From positions 930,001-994,000 of the forward strand of contig NZ_CM001776.1 in assembly GCF_000332275.1 (NCBI RefSeq): 64,000 bases of DNA, in the 5' to 3' direction. The position numbers were made by a program, and so were the translations under genes. Positions 3,217 through 11,360 of the stretch are shown one piece after another. Position 1 is the stretch's first letter; the number at the start of each line of letters is the position of its first letter. This DNA comes from Synechococcus sp. PCC 7336. Its GTDB lineage: Bacteria > Cyanobacteriota > Cyanobacteriia > Thermostichales > PCC-7336. The notes beneath the pieces are model-generated. The model searched no databases, had not been told where the DNA came from, and saw only the letters and a program-made list of their open reading frames with translations.

Positions 3217-3303
3217 GCCTAACAACCCTGGTGCAGCGGATTGACTAAGGTTGCTTGGATAGGATGTAAAGATCTCGACAACCGCTGACCAGGAACGTTA
3301 GGT
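3217..3303 (+). other. attC site B (canonical)
   Basis: Left box GCCTAAC (3217-3223) and right box GTTAGGT (3297-3303) match RYYYAAC and GTTRRRY. The inner arms CCTGGTGCAGCGGATTG and CAACCGCTGACCAGG pair throughout except for two extrahelical bases, G and A, the hallmark IntI uses to recognise the folded bottom strand. Length is 87 bp. It closes the two-gene DUF3644 cassette. Confidence 0.88.
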
Positions 3304-3393
3304 TTCTGTTTTCCTTAAGTTTTGTGGGTGAAATTAGGAGGTGCTAACCTGCGATCGCCCTAATGGGTTTAGCTACCGCAAGTTGGCCATCAA

Positions 3394-3483
3394 ACCTAAC
3401 TACTCGCTGCAACGGATGCTTGGCTAAACTGTCGCTCTTCGTTGAGAGTCTCTCTAGCACCGCTGACCTCAAGGACGTTAGGT
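3394..3483 (+). other. attC site C
   Basis: Boxes ACCTAAC (3394-3400) and GTTAGGT (3477-3483). Inner arms ACGGATGCT and AGCACCGCT pair around one extrahelical A. It closes the first gene-less cassette of the tandem. Confidence 0.82.
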
Positions 3484-3573
3484 TTCTGCTTAGCTTAAAT
3501 TTTGTGGGTGAAATTGGGAGGTGCTAACCTGCGATCGCCCTAATGGGTTTAGCTACCGCAAGTGGGCCATCAA

Positions 3574-3663
3574 ACCTAACCATTCGCCGCAGCGGATGCT
3601 TGGCAAAACTATTGCTCTTCGTTGAGAGGTTATCTAGCACCGCTAACCTCAAGGCCGTTAGGT
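3574..3663 (+). other. attC site D
   Basis: Boxes ACCTAAC (3574-3580) and GTTAGGT (3657-3663); inner arms AGCGGATGCT / AGCACCGCT with an extrahelical A. Closes the second tandem gene-less cassette. Confidence 0.82.
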
Positions 3664-3753
3664 TTCTGCTGTCCTTAAGTTTTGTTGGTAAAGTTGGGAG
3701 GTGCTAGCCTGCGATCGCCCTAATGAGTTTAGCTACCGCAAGTTGGCCATCAA

Positions 3754-3844
3754 ACCTAACCACTCGCCGCAGCGGATGCTTGGCTAAACTGTCGATCTTG
3801 TGTTGATAGTTAATCTAGCACCGCTAGACTCAAGGCCATTATGC
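3754..3844 (+). other. attC site E (degenerate right box)
   Basis: Left box ACCTAAC (3754-3760) and intact inner arms, but the right box reads ATTATGC (3838-3844) instead of GTTRRRY, so the conserved G at the crossover point has become A. The site may no longer recombine, which would fix the following DUF3800 cassette to its left neighbour. Confidence 0.7.
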
Positions 3845-4024: not shown

Positions 4025-4717
4025 ATGTATCTACTGTACGTAGATGAGTCTGGTACAACCCACGACCCAAATCAACAGTATTTCGTGCTAGCTGGGTTTT
4101 GTGTATTTGAGCGACAAGGATATTGGATTGCTAACCAGCTTGACCAAATTGCAGCTAGGTTTGATCCTGCTGATCCAGCAGCAGTTGAGTTACATGGTAG
4201 CCCAATATTCGGAGGAAGAGGGCGATGGAGGAGTCATCCTAAAGAAGATCGGCATCAAGCGATTGAAGATGCCCTAAAAGTTTTTCTACAATCTCATCCC
4301 AGCAATCGATTGTTTGCAAGCGTGATCAAGAAATCTGCGGTATATCCAAAAGACCCCGTTGAGGCTGCATTTGAGCAGTTAGCCAGTAGATTTGATAAGT
4401 ATTTAATGAGATTGCATAGGAACGGCAACACGCACAGAGGAATCATCATCTTTGATAAATCCACTTATGAGACAACAATTCAATCCTTGGCAACTGATTT
4501 TAGGACGATTGGATACACCTGGGGTGTGATAAGGAACTTTTCAGAAGTACCTCTCTTTTTAGATTCAAAAGCATCAAGACTGATTCAACTTGCTGACTTG
4601 ATTGCATACGCTGTTTTTAGGCATTTTGAAAAGGGGGATAATAGATTTTTCCCTATCATTGAACCTAGATTTGATTCAGAAGGTGGTGTAGTTCACGGAC
4701 TACACATCTTGCAATGA
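4025..4717 (+). CDS. DUF3800 domain protein in an integron cassette
   Basis: A 230-residue protein with the DUF3800 signatures: N-terminal YVDESG (D7, E8), IIIFDKS (D144) and DSKASRLIQLADLIAYA (D180, D191), followed by an HGL motif near the end. The conserved acidic residues at strand ends suggest an RNase-H-like fold and possible nuclease activity; this is a family-level inference, not shown. DUF3800 genes are common in mobile DNA including integron cassettes. It ends 6 bp before attC F, the usual cassette layout, and has a likely promoter and a folded leader of its own. The length is normal for the family and no defects are visible. Confidence 0.85.
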   Translation: MYLLYVDESGTTHDPNQQYFVLAGFCVFERQGYWIANQLDQIAARFDPADPAAVELHGSPIFGGRGRWRSHPKEDRHQAIEDALKVFLQSHPSNRLFASVIKKSAVYPKDPVEAAFEQLASRFDKYLMRLHRNGNTHRGIIIFDKSTYETTIQSLATDFRTIGYTWGVIRNFSEVPLFLDSKASRLIQLADLIAYAVFRHFEKGDNRFFPIIEPRFDSEGGVVHGLHILQ

Positions 4718-4723
4718 GTCGCG

Positions 4724-4810
4724 GCATAACAACCCGGTTGGAACGGACTGCCGAGAGATCTTGGTGATGTTGCAAAGTTTCCTAACAGCCGCTCAACCGG
4801 AACGTTAGGT
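4724..4810 (+). other. attC site F (canonical)
   Basis: Left box GCATAAC (4724-4730), right box GTTAGGT (4804-4810). The inner arms CCGGTTGGAACGGACTG and CAGCCGCTCAACCGG pair with extrahelical bases at the expected places. Length 87 bp. Closes the DUF3800 cassette. Confidence 0.87.
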
Positions 4811-5000
4811 TTCTACTGTCCTTAAATTTTGTGGGTAAAACTGGGAGGTGCTAGCCTGCGATCGCCATAATGGGCTTGGCTGTTGCAAGTCGGCCATCAA
4901 ACCTAACCATTCACTTGACCTTAAGATTTTTGGGTGAAATGGGGAGGTGCTAGGCTGCGATCGCACCATAATTGGATTATCTGTTTTAAGTCGGCCATCA
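4811..5000 (+). repeat. Two gene-less cassette bodies fused by loss of the attC between them
   Basis: Body copy four is at 4811-4900, then ACCTAAC plus six bases (4901-4913), then immediately body copy five (about 4914-5000). All but the first 13 bases of the intervening attC are missing, so a deletion joined two units. Copy five is the most diverged (GGATTATCTGTTTTAAG in place of the usual tail) and is followed by degenerate attC G. Confidence 0.7.
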
Positions 5001-5091
5001 ACTCTAAGCACTCCTGCAGCAGATTCTTGTCAAAACTATCGATTCTCTTTTAAGAGTCGATCTATCACCGCCGAGCTCAAGGCCGTTAGCC
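5001..5091 (+). other. attC site G (decayed)
   Basis: It aligns with the common attC family over its whole length but has lost the consensus at both boxes: ACTCTAAG in place of ACCTAAC (5001-5008) and GTTAGCC (5085-5091) in place of GTTRRRY. The inner arms no longer pair well. Probably an inactive relic. The following 5092-5200 is an unremarkable leader of the next gene pair. Confidence 0.55.
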
Positions 5092-5200
5092 CTAGGGATG
5101 CCAAAGTGACTTCCAGCCTTACAAGTTTTGCATCTCGGCTGGGAATTGGGACATGGGCTGATAAGATTCTGGGCAAGATCTAACCAGCAACTCTCTTTCA

Positions 5201-5548
5201 ATGTCTACTCCAGAAGCACTTGATGCCCTGATTGCCCAGCTTACTCAGGAACTTGACCAAGTTCAGCAGATTGCCCAACATGGTCTGAAAATCACCTGGG
5301 AAAAACTTCGAGCAACTCCAGATAGTACCGAACTCACTCGATTATTTGCAATTTTCAACAATGTCTCGTTTTTTGCAGAAAACTATAGAGGGCGAATTCA
5401 GACAACGGTAAAAACAATTTCCGAAGCAAACCTAGAAGCAGAACGACTTCAAGACGCTGGTGAGGAGTTAGCAGCCTTACTTGGAGTGACATTAGAGGCT
5501 AAAATGTTGGTAGAGAATTCTGTTCGTCGCTTGAGCAAGCTATCATGA
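5201..5548 (+). CDS. Small helical cassette protein of unknown function
   Basis: A 115-residue protein with no family I recognise. It is predicted to be almost wholly alpha-helical, with heptad-like Leu/Ile/Val spacing (ALIAQLTQELDQVQQIAQ near the N-terminus; ANLEAERLQDAGEELAALL later). There is no signal peptide or membrane segment. Its stop overlaps the next start as ATGA at 5545-5548, so the two genes are translationally coupled. Size and coupling resemble toxin-antitoxin pairs, but no toxin fold is evident. The pair is flanked by decayed attC G and a weak attC candidate, so it forms one cassette. Confidence 0.65.
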   Translation: MSTPEALDALIAQLTQELDQVQQIAQHGLKITWEKLRATPDSTELTRLFAIFNNVSFFAENYRGRIQTTVKTISEANLEAERLQDAGEELAALLGVTLEAKMLVENSVRRLSKLS

Positions 5549-5718
5549 CACAAGTAGAACAAAGCACTGTTGGTCAATCTAAGCTAGAGGAAGTCGTTTC
5601 ATTAGCCGAAGCTGCGGAAGCTAAGATGCAGCTATTTTCTCAACAGGCCGAGGAATTCACAGCCAAGTGGGAGCAAACCGTTAGCCAACATAATAGCTCA
5701 CATCAGGCTAATGCTTAA
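5545..5718 (+). CDS. 57-residue acidic partner protein in the same cassette
   Basis: ATG 5545 to TAA 5718, overlapping the stop of the upstream gene by four bases. The product starts MTQVEQSTVGQSKLEEVV and ends HNSSHQANA; it is rich in Glu, Gln and Ala and probably a single long helix. The stop codon overlaps a GCTTAAC box at 5713-5719, the typical way a cassette gene runs into its attC. Function unknown. Coupling with the 115-residue protein suggests that the two act together. Confidence 0.55.
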   Translation: MTQVEQSTVGQSKLEEVVSLAEAAEAKMQLFSQQAEEFTAKWEQTVSQHNSSHQANA

Positions 5719-5804
5719 CCCTGTACTACAAGGGATGCTCAATTCATACGTTGCCTGCTTGAATTTTAGATTGTCTTTCGCGCCTCTGAGCACCACCGTT
5801 AGGT
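5713..5804 (+). other. Weak attC candidate H
   Basis: Boxes GCTTAAC (5713-5719) and GTTAGGT (5798-5804) fit the consensus and are 92 bp apart, and the next cassette body begins right after 5804, as it does after sites B, C, D and F. The inner arms do not pair convincingly, so this site is either highly diverged or damaged. A small AATTCA/TGAATT hairpin lies in its middle. Confidence 0.4.
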
Positions 5805-5894
5805 TTCTGCTGAGCTTAAATTTTGTGGGTGAAATTGGGAGGTGCTAACCTGCGATCGCCCTAATTGGTCTAGCTATTGCAAGTTGGCCATCAA
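5805..5894 (+). repeat. Gene-less cassette body, sixth copy
   Basis: Nearly identical to the copy at 3484-3573, with the same core GGGAGGTGCTAACCTGCG and tail GGCCATCAA directly before the ACCTAAC box. It forms a 180-bp cassette with attC I, so the same unit occurs on both sides of the DUF3800 and small-gene cassettes. Confidence 0.75.
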
Positions 5895-5984
5895 ACCTAA
5901 CCATTCGCTGCAACGGATGCTTAGCAAAACTGTCGCTCTTTGTTGAGAGATTATCTAGCACCGCTGAGCTCAAGGACGTTAGGC
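5895..5984 (+). other. attC site I
   Basis: Boxes ACCTAAC (5895-5901) and GTTAGGC (5978-5984); inner arms ACGGATGCT / AGCACCGCT with an extrahelical A. Ninety bp, same family as A, C, D and E. The Fic cassette begins after it. Confidence 0.82.
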
Positions 5985-6045
5985 TGACTTTTGTGTGAAA
6001 TGCTTCTGCAAACAGCACCCTCGATTCAAATATTTTTTGCATTTT

Positions 6046-6101
6046 GGCTTTACTTGTTTTAACGATCTCTAGTAAAGTAAAGCCTAGTTTGCTTTACTAA
6101 G
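6046..6101 (+). promoter_or_regulatory. Operator-like repeats upstream of the Fic gene
   Basis: A perfect 10-bp inverted repeat, GGCTTTACTT (6046-6055) and AAGTAAAGCC (6075-6084), is followed by a third half-site GCTTTACTAAG (6091-6101), and CTTTACTAAG recurs just inside the gene at 6122-6131. Four copies of one motif around a start codon suggest a binding site. The Fic protein ends in a winged-helix-like domain, so self-repression is the likely use. Confidence 0.55.
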
Positions 6102-6113
6102 AATTCTGTAAGT

Positions 6114-7331
6114 ATGCCATCCTTTACTAAGAAAGCAGAACGGGCAGGGCAGTGGGTGTGGCAGGGCAGTGGTGAAACTTCTTATGAGGCCTTTATTCCT
6201 GCGCCTTTACCACCTGTTCCAGCAATTACGGTAGACTCAGCGCTTCAGCGACAGCTTGAAGCTGCCGGGTTGGCCTTAGGGCGACTTGATGGGATTGGGC
6301 GACTACTACCAGGGCCAGAAGAACTTCTATACAGTTACATCCGGAAGGAAGCTGTGCTGTCAAGCCAGATTGAGGGAACTCAGTCATCCATTGCTGATTT
6401 GCTTCTGCATGAGAATCAGTCAATGCCGGGAGTTGTATTGGAAGATGTTCAAGAGGTTTCCAATTACATCGGTGCATTGGGCTATGGCATTGATCGCCTT
6501 TCGACGCTGCCGCTCAGCTTACGCCTGATTCGCGAGTCTCATGAACGACTTGTCCGTGGCACTCGTGGCGATCGAAAGGCACCTGGAGAGTTCAGACGTT
6601 CCCAGAACTGGATTGGGGGAAGTAAACCCAGTGATGCCATGTTTGTGCCACCTCCCCCCCATGAGTTACCAGACATACTCAGTGCGTTCGAAAAATTTCT
6701 CCATTCTACGGAGTATCCTGTTTTGCTCAAGGTAGGGCTTGCACACGCGCAATTTGAGACAATTCACCCCTTTCTTGACGGCAATGGTCGAGTAGGTCGT
6801 ATGCTCATAGCACTTATGCTTGTTGCAGAAGGAGTATTGGAAAGGCCGTGGCTTTATGTGAGCCTTCATTTTAAAAAGCACCGTGACAAGTATTATAGTC
6901 TTCTTCAAGACGTAAGAACCCAAGGAAATTGGGAAGAGTGGCTTGTATTTTTCCTTGAAGGTGTTACCGTCACTGCCAATCAAGCTACAGATAAGATCCG
7001 TGCTCTAATGGCCCTCTTTGAGCGAGATCGGAAAGTAGTAGAGCAGTCGCGGAAAGGCTCGATTTACCAGTCAGTTGCAGTGCAGTCAAACTTGACAGTC
7101 TACGATTACTTAAAGAAAAGGATCGCAATCCGGATTCCTGAAACTGCAGAAGCCTGTGGAACAACGAAGCCAACTGTTAAACGTGCTATCGACGATCTTC
7201 AAAAACTTGGTATCGTGACCGAGGCAACAGGTAAACCCAGGAATAAAGTGTATATCTATACAGAGTACCTAGATATTTTGAATCAGGATGACGGCACCTC
7301 TAAACTATCGAATGAACGCAGTAATGAGTGA
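6114..7331 (+). CDS. Fic-family AMPylase-like protein with C-terminal winged helix
   Basis: A 405-residue protein. Residues 218-229 read HPFLDGNGRVGR, the complete Fic active-site motif HPFx(D/E)GNGRxxR, so adenylyl (or other nucleotidyl) transfer to a hydroxyl side chain is possible. An N-terminal inhibitory helix carries SSQIEG (S83 to E87), the (S/T)xxxE(G/N) motif of class II Fic proteins, which blocks ATP until relieved. Residues about 335-385 form a DNA-binding winged helix (ETAEACGTTKPTVKRAIDDL). The architecture is that of the widespread Fic/DUF4172-like regulators. It sits in its own cassette between attC I and attC J; repeated CTTTACT motifs upstream suggest autoregulation. The target is unknown. 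No defects seen. Confidence 0.9.
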   Translation: MPSFTKKAERAGQWVWQGSGETSYEAFIPAPLPPVPAITVDSALQRQLEAAGLALGRLDGIGRLLPGPEELLYSYIRKEAVLSSQIEGTQSSIADLLLHENQSMPGVVLEDVQEVSNYIGALGYGIDRLSTLPLSLRLIRESHERLVRGTRGDRKAPGEFRRSQNWIGGSKPSDAMFVPPPPHELPDILSAFEKFLHSTEYPVLLKVGLAHAQFETIHPFLDGNGRVGRMLIALMLVAEGVLERPWLYVSLHFKKHRDKYYSLLQDVRTQGNWEEWLVFFLEGVTVTANQATDKIRALMALFERDRKVVEQSRKGSIYQSVAVQSNLTVYDYLKKRIAIRIPETAEACGTTKPTVKRAIDDLQKLGIVTEATGKPRNKVYIYTEYLDILNQDDGTSKLSNERSNE

Positions 7332-9432: not shown

Positions 9433-11360
9433 GGAGAAGTGTTTAACTCCCCCCTCCCACACCGCCCTGCAAGCGGGTCCGCACAGGGCGGTTCAATATC
9501 GCGGAGCAAACATGAATTGAGGCTATTTCGCATACCCTTGGGCTTTCATCCAAAGGTCGCGAATTGATAGCAATCCCTGCTCTTTTAGCCACTCATTAGT
9601 CATCCCACTGTGCGTCGCCAGCGTTCTTGACAAGCGCCAATAACCTTTACGGCTAAGGCCGGTCAAAATTGCCTGACGCTTAGACGTACCCAACTCCAGA
9701 AGATTACGAATGCGAGTGCGCGCTCGTCGCCACTGTTTCCAGTAGCACATCCGAACCCGCCTCCTCAACCATCCGTCTAACTCTGGAATCGGTTGGTAGT
9801 ATTGCGAGATGCCAAAGTAGCCCATCCATCCTCGCAAGTACTGGTTTAACCGAGTCAGGCGTTCTTCCATTGAGACCCCAACTGCGGGAGGTGAGTCCAC
9901 GCAGTCGATGTTTGAAGTCATCAAAGGCTTTCTGCGACCAATACACCCGCATCCCTCGGAAGCTGAATCCGAGCTCCTCCAATGCTTGGACACTGACCAC
10001 CTGAGATTTCTGCCGATTGACCCGCAGCTTTAACGTTTGGGTCAGATATCGGCTGATACTTGCCATCACTCGCTGACCTGCCCGGATACTTTTGACCAGA
10101 ATGACCAGGTCGTCCATATAGCGGACAAAGCGGTGACCTCGTTTCTCCAGTTCTCGCTCGAGATCGTCCAACAGGATGTTGGCGAGCAAAGGCGATAACG
10201 GAGACCCTTGCGGCGTCCCCAATGCCGTTGCCTGGACGAGGCCGTCCACCATGACGCCTGCCCGCAGGTATCGACCGAGCAGCCGCAGGAGCACTTTGTC
10301 ATGCACCTGCCGCGATACGCGAGCCATCAATACATCGTGCTGCACTGTAGCGAAGAATTTCTCCAAATCCAGGTCAACCGCGATACGATGTCCCGCTTTC
10401 CTGTGGTCTTTTACCTGTGCAATGGCTCCGTGGGCAGAGCGCTTGGGTCGGCTGCCGAAGCTCGATTCCGAAAACTCAGGGTCGAACATCGGCGTTAGCA
10501 CTTGCAAGACAGCTTGCTGGATGAACCGGTCTAGAACACAAGGCACCCCTAGCAATCTGTCTCCTCTGCCTCCCGGCTTGGGGATGACCACCCGGCGCAC
10601 GGGAGCAGGTTGATACGTGCCCTCCAATAGGGATTGGCTGATTGTGGGCCAATGCTTTCGGGCGTAGGCGGGGAAGTCCTCTAAGCTCATCCCGTCACTG
10701 CCGGGTGCGCCTTGGTTGGACTTCACACGCTGCCATGCCTGTCGGACATTGGCGCTCTCCACAACTCGACCCATCAGGTTCAAGCCTAAGGCTGGCTGTA
10801 TGCCGTAACGCCAGTCCGTATCTCCCCCGCTCGGGTTCATTGACACGCCTGAGTTCGTCATGGCTCCTCCTTATGCGACACTGTTCGGTCCTTCACTGCG
10901 ACAGCAGCTACTATGACCTCTGCTGACTTCTGCCCAATGCGGCTGCTGTTGCCAACAGTCGTGCTGTCTGAGTCTCCGTAGGGTCCGGTGGTTTCCCCAT
11001 CTCTTTCGCGATGGACCTCAGTCCGACTCCCATAGATTCCCTGACTGCCCTCGGACAGACCTGCCCGGATAAGAACGTGAACTGTCCCTGCACAACCGCG
11101 CCATTTACCGTGTCCTTTGAACCAGAGGGCTTCGTTGTGTGGTGCCAACTCGCCCCAAGAATCTCGGCCTTCTATGACGTTTCTGTTCGTCGGCTCGCAG
11201 TTTTGCTGCTGGCTTCCTTCAGACATTTCCTCGCGGAAACACCCTTGCCTTAAGCTAGTCGTTGTTGTCTCTCGGCTCCCATGACTTTCGAGCATTTGGA
11301 CTCTGGTTCTCCGACAGGGGACTTTCACCCCATGAGTTCACGCCCATGCCGGGCGTACAC
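9423..11360 (-). mobile_element. Group II intron (probably group IIC), antiparallel to the cassettes
   Basis: On the minus strand the RNA starts GTGTACGCCCGGCATGGG at 11360, a typical group II 5' end, followed by a TGGGGTGAAAGTCCCC element. Domain V lies at about 9460-9494: stem ACCGCCCTG/CAGGGCGGT with CCGC at the triad position, consistent with the CGC triad of group IIC. Domain VI follows and ends CCCGAT at about 9423. Length is about 1.94 kb and it encodes its own maturase. The 5' splice site falls inside attC K, next to where its left box should be. Group IIC-attC introns are known to invade the bottom strand of attC sites, giving exactly this orientation. On the other flank the attC left box is missing, implying a later deletion. 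Confidence 0.8.
9523..10861 (-). pseudogene. ltrA: Group II intron reverse transcriptase/maturase, frameshifted
   Basis: Two overlapping frames together encode one LtrA-type protein of about 430 residues. The first (from ATG 10861) carries the reverse-transcriptase blocks: VVIPKPGGRGDRLLG, ALGTPQGSPLSPLLAN and the catalytic FVRYMDDLVIL. The second, ending at 9523, carries the maturase/X domain (RLNQYLRGWMGYFGI, LRRRVRMCYWKQWRR). The break is in a run of four Gs near 9887, where SRSWG in the first frame should continue as VSMEERL in the second; a net +1 shift (one base gained or two lost) explains it. There is no HNH endonuclease domain, as in group IIC. Recoding or a sequencing error in the G-run cannot be excluded. 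Confidence 0.8.

Follow-up and report, generated by a model that had tools for sequence, protein, structure and literature searches.

An overlapping pair of small genes in a cyanobacterial integron cassette, a candidate toxin-antitoxin-like family

We describe a conserved family of two small genes, here called ORF A and ORF B, which share a fixed ATGA-type overlap, and show by computation that B is retained at many sites where A has been deleted or broken. Our best reading is that the pair is a candidate new toxin-antitoxin (TA)-like family within the cyanobacterial phylum. We think it probable, with considerable room for doubt, that A-B is a mobile two-gene module that acts like a toxin-first protein toxin-antitoxin pair. 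The pair from which the analysis started lies in a stretch of 64,000 nucleotides, hereafter the window, which covers positions 930001-994000 of a 5.07-Mb single-contig genome. The features of the window that concern the pair are the following:

5201-5548, + strand: ORF A, 115 aa, predicted three-helix bundle, proposed toxin-like partner
5545-5718, + strand: ORF B, 57 aa, acidic, predicted single long helix, proposed antitoxin-like partner
5545-5548, + strand: ATGA, overlap of the A stop with the B start, the same -1 overlap as in 37 of 41 complete pairs
5713-5804, + strand: attC-like site (R'' GCTTAAC, L'' GGATGCT, L' AGCACC, R' GTTAGGT)
5086-5798, + strand: putative cassette with deduced boundaries, A and B being its only recognised genes

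The initial annotation described a 115-aa and a 57-aa ORF overlapping by ATGA, with the stop of the second gene overlapping the attC box. The ORF list and the letters at 5545-5548 confirmed the overlap, and the B stop (5716-5718) does lie inside the R'' heptamer GCTTAAC (5713-5719) of a site that ends with GTTAGGT at 5798-5804. We took the cassette to extend as far as the R' box at 5798 from an R'-like box at 5085-5091, which would belong to a degenerate attC on the upstream side. A scan of 4700-6100 revealed neither a sigma-70-type promoter nor a terminator-like site.

The coupling of A and B is more than chance, as the overlap recurs in homologous pairs and dN/dS was below 1 in every group that yielded a value. 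The -1 overlap of A stop and B start is identical in 37 of the 41 complete pairs. Thirteen copies at one site in genus g62 gave a dN/dS of 0.41 for A and 0.24 for B, each being the ratio of sums over 78 comparisons. Comparison of the window copy with its closest relative, in genome G534, gave 0.25 for A and no value for B, and two Planktothrix-type copies (L029 and L085) gave 0.88 for A. We attach next to no weight to the idea that ORF A and ORF B are spurious or decaying; copies of the family are often decayed, the second copy in the same genome included, but the value of 0.25 for A, the 72% identity of the window and G534 proteins across A+B, and the conservation of overlap and length all argue against it. 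In the second copy (L002, G000:C1:3835688-3836136), A lacks its first 15 residues and B is an intact 50-aa ORF.

Homologous pairs were searched for in several genome samples. The initial annotation had named the lack of a homologous pair elsewhere as one part of the grounds for giving up its proposal; such pairs exist. With the window A as query, 4 of 96 related genomes matched, its own genome included, while the A profile matched 13 of 386 genomes of a phylum sample and the B profile 14 of 388 genomes of a class sample. A joint A+B profile matched 24 of 61, 3 of 29 and 20 of 50 genomes in three families that were picked for already holding matches, and up to 14 matches fell in a single genome when A and B were scored separately. 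Two further matches, one to B in G231 (E 4e-4) and one to A over 24 residues in G703, were left out of the counts. We use ‘cyanobacterial’ for where the search reached, other phyla having been covered by one single-sequence scan. A phage collection and three viral-contig scans gave no match to the pair. The only match of the single-sequence scan, in a Verrucomicrobiota contig (41% over 58 aa), lay inside an 844-aa ORF and was set aside as chance.

The module is also carried by plasmids. Homologues of A were present on plasmids of Planktothrix and Gloeothece, and two Planktothrix agardhii plasmids matched A over its length. The P. agardhii plasmid NZ_LR882937.1 has A and B annotated as two overlapping ‘hypothetical protein’ genes. 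The pair in G668, met in the search of the window's phylum, shares 512 identical nt with that of a P. agardhii plasmid; from this and the plasmid homologues we took the phylum to be Cyanobacteria. A Gloeothece citriformis plasmid has, in the neighbourhood of TA genes, B together with an A that is split between two frames; TA-type and restriction-type genes were near the module at several sites. The surroundings of the G534 pair include a DNA methylase, a DUF433 gene and a Uma2 gene, and a first, stricter box search found no attC boxes there. As the window pair is in a putative cassette and the stricter search showed no attC boxes at the G534 pair, the module seems to occur both in and out of integrons. 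The selection of neighbours scanned at 14 pair loci revealed no fixed functional partner. Contig C4 of G090 (L051) was considered as a plasmid and dropped from the plasmid evidence, its ORFs being mainly transposase-like by eye.

To take a census of the copies, we scanned 166 loci, many of them overlapping, from genomes of one phylum and two plasmids with local HMMs and, after merging copies identical over the last 60 nt, obtained 106 distinct copies of A, B or both. A was scored as full when at least 100 of its 115 model positions were covered in a single frame, and B when at least 36 of its 56 were; under this definition a few full B may lack a natural start. The copies were distributed as follows:

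A full and B full: 42 of 106 copies
A full, B undetected by HMM: 3 of 106 copies
A fragment and B full: 17 of 106 copies
A absent and B full: 33 of 106 copies
A fragment and B absent: 5 of 106 copies
A absent and B fragment: 4 of 106 copies
A fragment and B fragment: 2 of 106 copies

The three copies with A only by HMM (L106, L118 and L119) each have a B-like ORF downstream, by eye. L009 was moved out of the full pairs, its A being interrupted after about 16 codons by an insert, and L061 (stop in B) and L115 (frameshift in B) were removed from full B. These corrections left 41 pairs, 3 copies with a full A whose B was recognised by eye only, and 49 copies with a full B but no full A. The 49 were spread over 38 of 69 flank-similarity clusters, and the pairs over 25. 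A full-length A was followed by a B-like ORF in 44 of 44 cases (three by eye only), and no full-length A without a B-like ORF was found among the 106 distinct copies. Because the A profile is the longer of the two, detection should have favoured a full A lacking B over a full B lacking A. The insert in L009 (1380-1510), which divides A near codon 16, is about 110 bp long and has AGCGGTTTTC ends in inverted orientation.

The sequence just upstream of solo B indicates where many of these copies came from. Twenty-one of the 34 copies without A retain the last six residues of A, which is above the 99th percentile of random positions, and these solo B copies therefore derive from A-B pairs; the six codons before the overlap typically spell RLENLQ in them. 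We found an SD-like tetramer (GGAG, GAGG or AGGA) at ribosome-binding distance in 18 of the 34 copies without A and in 21 of the 41 complete pairs, the frequency at random positions being 0.11. The C-terminal codons of A can double as the ribosome-binding site of B, which would explain the retention of the A tail. It is very improbable that B is a member of a generic antitoxin pool and that solo B serves unrelated toxins encoded just upstream. Some solo B copies do follow HepT-like, nucleotidyltransferase, BrnA, RelE-like or DUF6876 genes, but the descent of the 21 copies from A-B pairs and the variation of the upstream genes between sites both speak against such a pool.

We examined the loss of A and the upkeep of B at an orthologous site in g75. 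The site has A and B in G416 and no A in nine relatives, whose downstream flank is 97-98% identical; seven of the nine also match the upstream flank of G416 (75-96%). In the seven intact solo B copies, 8 changes on 111 nonsynonymous sites stood against 9 on 30 synonymous sites (Fisher p = 0.002; dN/dS 0.22), and B was decayed in two of the nine relatives (G179 and G707). Part of this constraint may predate the loss of A, and some of the losses in g75 share one ancestral event. At four g75 loci, solo B is immediately preceded by a HepT-like or nucleotidyltransferase gene. In L057, L113 and L122, a HepT-like ORF, compared with Pfam in L057 only, ends about 90 nt upstream of solo B, at the place of A in G416.

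The constraint on the g75 B protein and the abundance of solo B would also agree with reversed roles, B being the active small protein and A a co-translated regulator or inhibitor whose loss frees B. We consider this improbable, as it would leave B an uncontrolled effector at dozens of sites; moreover, every full-length A found was accompanied by a B-like ORF, and conservation in the pairs is no lower for A than for B (mean pairwise identity 0.41 vs 0.34). With A as the toxin-like partner, solo B would be a remnant after A was purged. Among known TA families, solo antitoxins and solo toxins are both frequent (PMC2701414), and solo B is therefore no proof by itself. We used BrnT/BrnA as a control in 49 genomes of one family and counted at least 319 BrnT vs 105 BrnA matches, with no B-like asymmetry; the totals are sums of per-genome counts and are confounded, partner swapping being likely. 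The TA reading for A-B is supported but not calibrated, the known-family control having failed to reproduce the asymmetry.

A different pattern was seen in g62, where the pair is present at one chromosomal site adjoining a glycosyltransferase gene that is common to 15 of 26 loci tested, the query's own place included. This looks like stable vertical inheritance rather than selfish mobility. One could suppose that A and B are subunits of a non-toxic stress, defence or cell-surface adaptor complex, A being unfoldable without B and B being kept by a second, independent role. The upkeep of the g62 pair beside the glycosyltransferase gene fits such a complex, as do the start of A 12 nt after an epimerase gene in L041 and the lack of a toxin signature in A. 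We nevertheless regard the complex as rather unlikely, given that the neighbours elsewhere are unrelated and that an autonomous module better accounts for the several copies per genome, the presence on plasmids and in an integron, and the recurrent loss of A.

We predicted the structures of both proteins with AlphaFold2. The A model has three antiparallel helices (5-38, 43-74 and 80-114; mean pLDDT 91), in line with the helical protein proposed in the initial annotation, and the B model, made from a single sequence, has one helix (3-56). B was rightly called acidic (pI 4.7); A is also acidic (pI 5.0), and residue composition showed that both proteins are acidic on average. The arrangement had been likened to a TA operon with no known fold. 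The likeness gained support from the recurring coupled pair, its multiple copies, its presence on plasmids and the retention of B without A, but ‘no known fold’ was too strong, since the models predict an ordinary antiparallel three-helix bundle for A and a single helix for B. Amphipathicity was significant for helices 1 and 3 of A (p 0.0005 and 0.016, respectively) but not for helix 2 (p 0.23); the moment of the B helix was borderline amphipathic (p = 0.023 for 3-56 and 0.051 for 10-42). The conserved positions of A include P4, G87, E88, G95, E99 and K101. No His or Asp in A was conserved at ≥75% of aligned homologues, which makes a classical RNase-type toxin unlikely, and His accounts for 0.5% of A residues. 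We saw no known toxin motif or catalytic signature in A, and family scans recognised no DNA-binding domain in B, which is predicted as one helix.

Searches against known families were consistent with a family of its own. The window A and B had no usable match in Pfam, PHROGs, NCBIfam or PADLOC, and in scans of their homologues any one family matched at most 2 of 17 A (Pfam, NCBIfam) or 3 of 22 B (Pfam), all weakly. Scattered weak matches to PF12236 (one A homologue, E 0.009), PF03539 (one B homologue, E 0.0015) and DUF4315 (three B homologues, best 0.029) were attributed to chance. PDB sequence profiles gave nothing below E 0.09, and a Foldseek search of PDB and BFVD with the A model had no match at E ≤ 0.001. 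The top VIA-align 2 matches of the A model were designed three-helix bundles and unrelated helical bundles. A chain of a PezAT entry (2p5t_A, Z 8.9, 84 aligned) in a lower VIA-align 2 row was in the range of helical bundles and was given no weight. A literature search found no published description of the A-B family.

We propose that free A would be harmful or unstable and that the single amphipathic helix of B would pack on A, perhaps completing a four-helix bundle, and so neutralise it, while overlapping translation would keep B production in step with A. The action is probably by binding, not catalysis. In the window, the pair would have turned integron gene cassette, a setting in which such modules can stabilise an array. 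A more specific proposal, that of a cyanobacterial TA family with a bare three-helix-bundle toxin without active site, an antitoxin helix that completes a four-helix bundle and a history, readable at orthologous sites, of repeated toxin loss in which the antitoxin and its ribosome-binding site are retained, is tentative and less likely than not.

The pair was compared with several known systems. The toxin-first gene order (T-AT) is listed for type II TA modules in a cyanobacterial survey that also gives 69 TA pairs and seven stand-alone components in one strain (PMC4963859). Like toxin-first type II modules, A and B are small, co-directional, overlapping genes conserved as a pair, with a patchy, multicopy distribution, plasmid and integron carriage and solo antitoxin-like remnants. 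Unlike the known ones, neither protein matches a known toxin or antitoxin family, B is without a recognised DNA-binding domain and A is only a candidate toxin. A DNA-binding domain is common, not universal, in type II antitoxins. The pair resembles HEPN-MNT (HepT/MntA) in that A is small and all-helical and in the HepT-like or nucleotidyltransferase genes upstream of solo B at the four g75 loci; it differs in the lack of a conserved histidine in A and in B, which is predicted to be a single helix rather than a nucleotidyltransferase. The HEPN motif is RX4-6H, and no histidine was present in the A columns conserved at ≥75%. Chromosomal integrons are known to hold TA cassettes, which carry established TA families. 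A-B is like them a two-gene module between attC sites without a sigma-70-type promoter match, and unlike them it belongs to an unnamed family and has an attC site with unequal spacers. The msoT1/msoA1 pair of Microcystis, as outlined in PMC12390103, is another candidate new cyanobacterial TA family; it is of type I, with a predicted membrane protein as toxin and an antisense RNA as antitoxin, whereas B is a protein-coding gene whose protein sequence is constrained. If the TA reading for A-B is confirmed, a phylum already rich in TA loci would hold a TA family invisible to current libraries, with a toxin acting by binding rather than catalysis. The many sites at which B outlasts A provide a natural system for studying why antitoxins outlive toxins.

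A and B lie between attC-like sites with an integron integrase match nearby, the arrangement expected of an integron cassette. A search for the boxes R'', L'', L' and R' yielded four attC-like sites on the + strand of the window, 5713-5804 among them. The - strand had no such site, nor did any of 20 Markov-model sequences, each of one strand's length; the spacer range in this search had been widened after a stricter first version missed the 5713-5804 site. The spacers of this site are unequal (13 and 3 nt, vs 13 and 15 at the other three), and its single-strand fold was no better than shuffles (z 0.22), so that it is attC-like by its boxes but may be poor as a recombination site. An integron integrase match lies about 1.7 kb to the left of the window, with a TIGR02249 match above the cut-off at G000:C1:927338-928087 and its start at 928083-928277. 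The whole match (G000:C1:927338-928277; L031, L035) is split over two frames that overlap by a few bases, and the integrase may therefore be inactive or mis-sequenced. Further partial integrase matches were found in the genome at 2574022-2575093 and 4251138-4251437.

Other elements were observed in the array region. Repeats of about 180 bp, 72-88% identical to a reference copy, occur at 3282-3842 and 5783-5983 of the window; several carry attC boxes and they share a GCGATCGC motif, and they look like ORF-less cassettes. Group II intron matches lie beside or inside the array at 9704-11240, a region with an ORF judged by eye to be reverse transcriptase-like. The ORFs at 620-1942, 4025-4717 and 6114-7331 gave DUF3644, DUF3800 and SoFic matches, which suggests conflict-related cargo; the DUF3644 ORF is the PADLOC candidate PDC-S19, and the Fic protein matches the PADLOC SoFic model.
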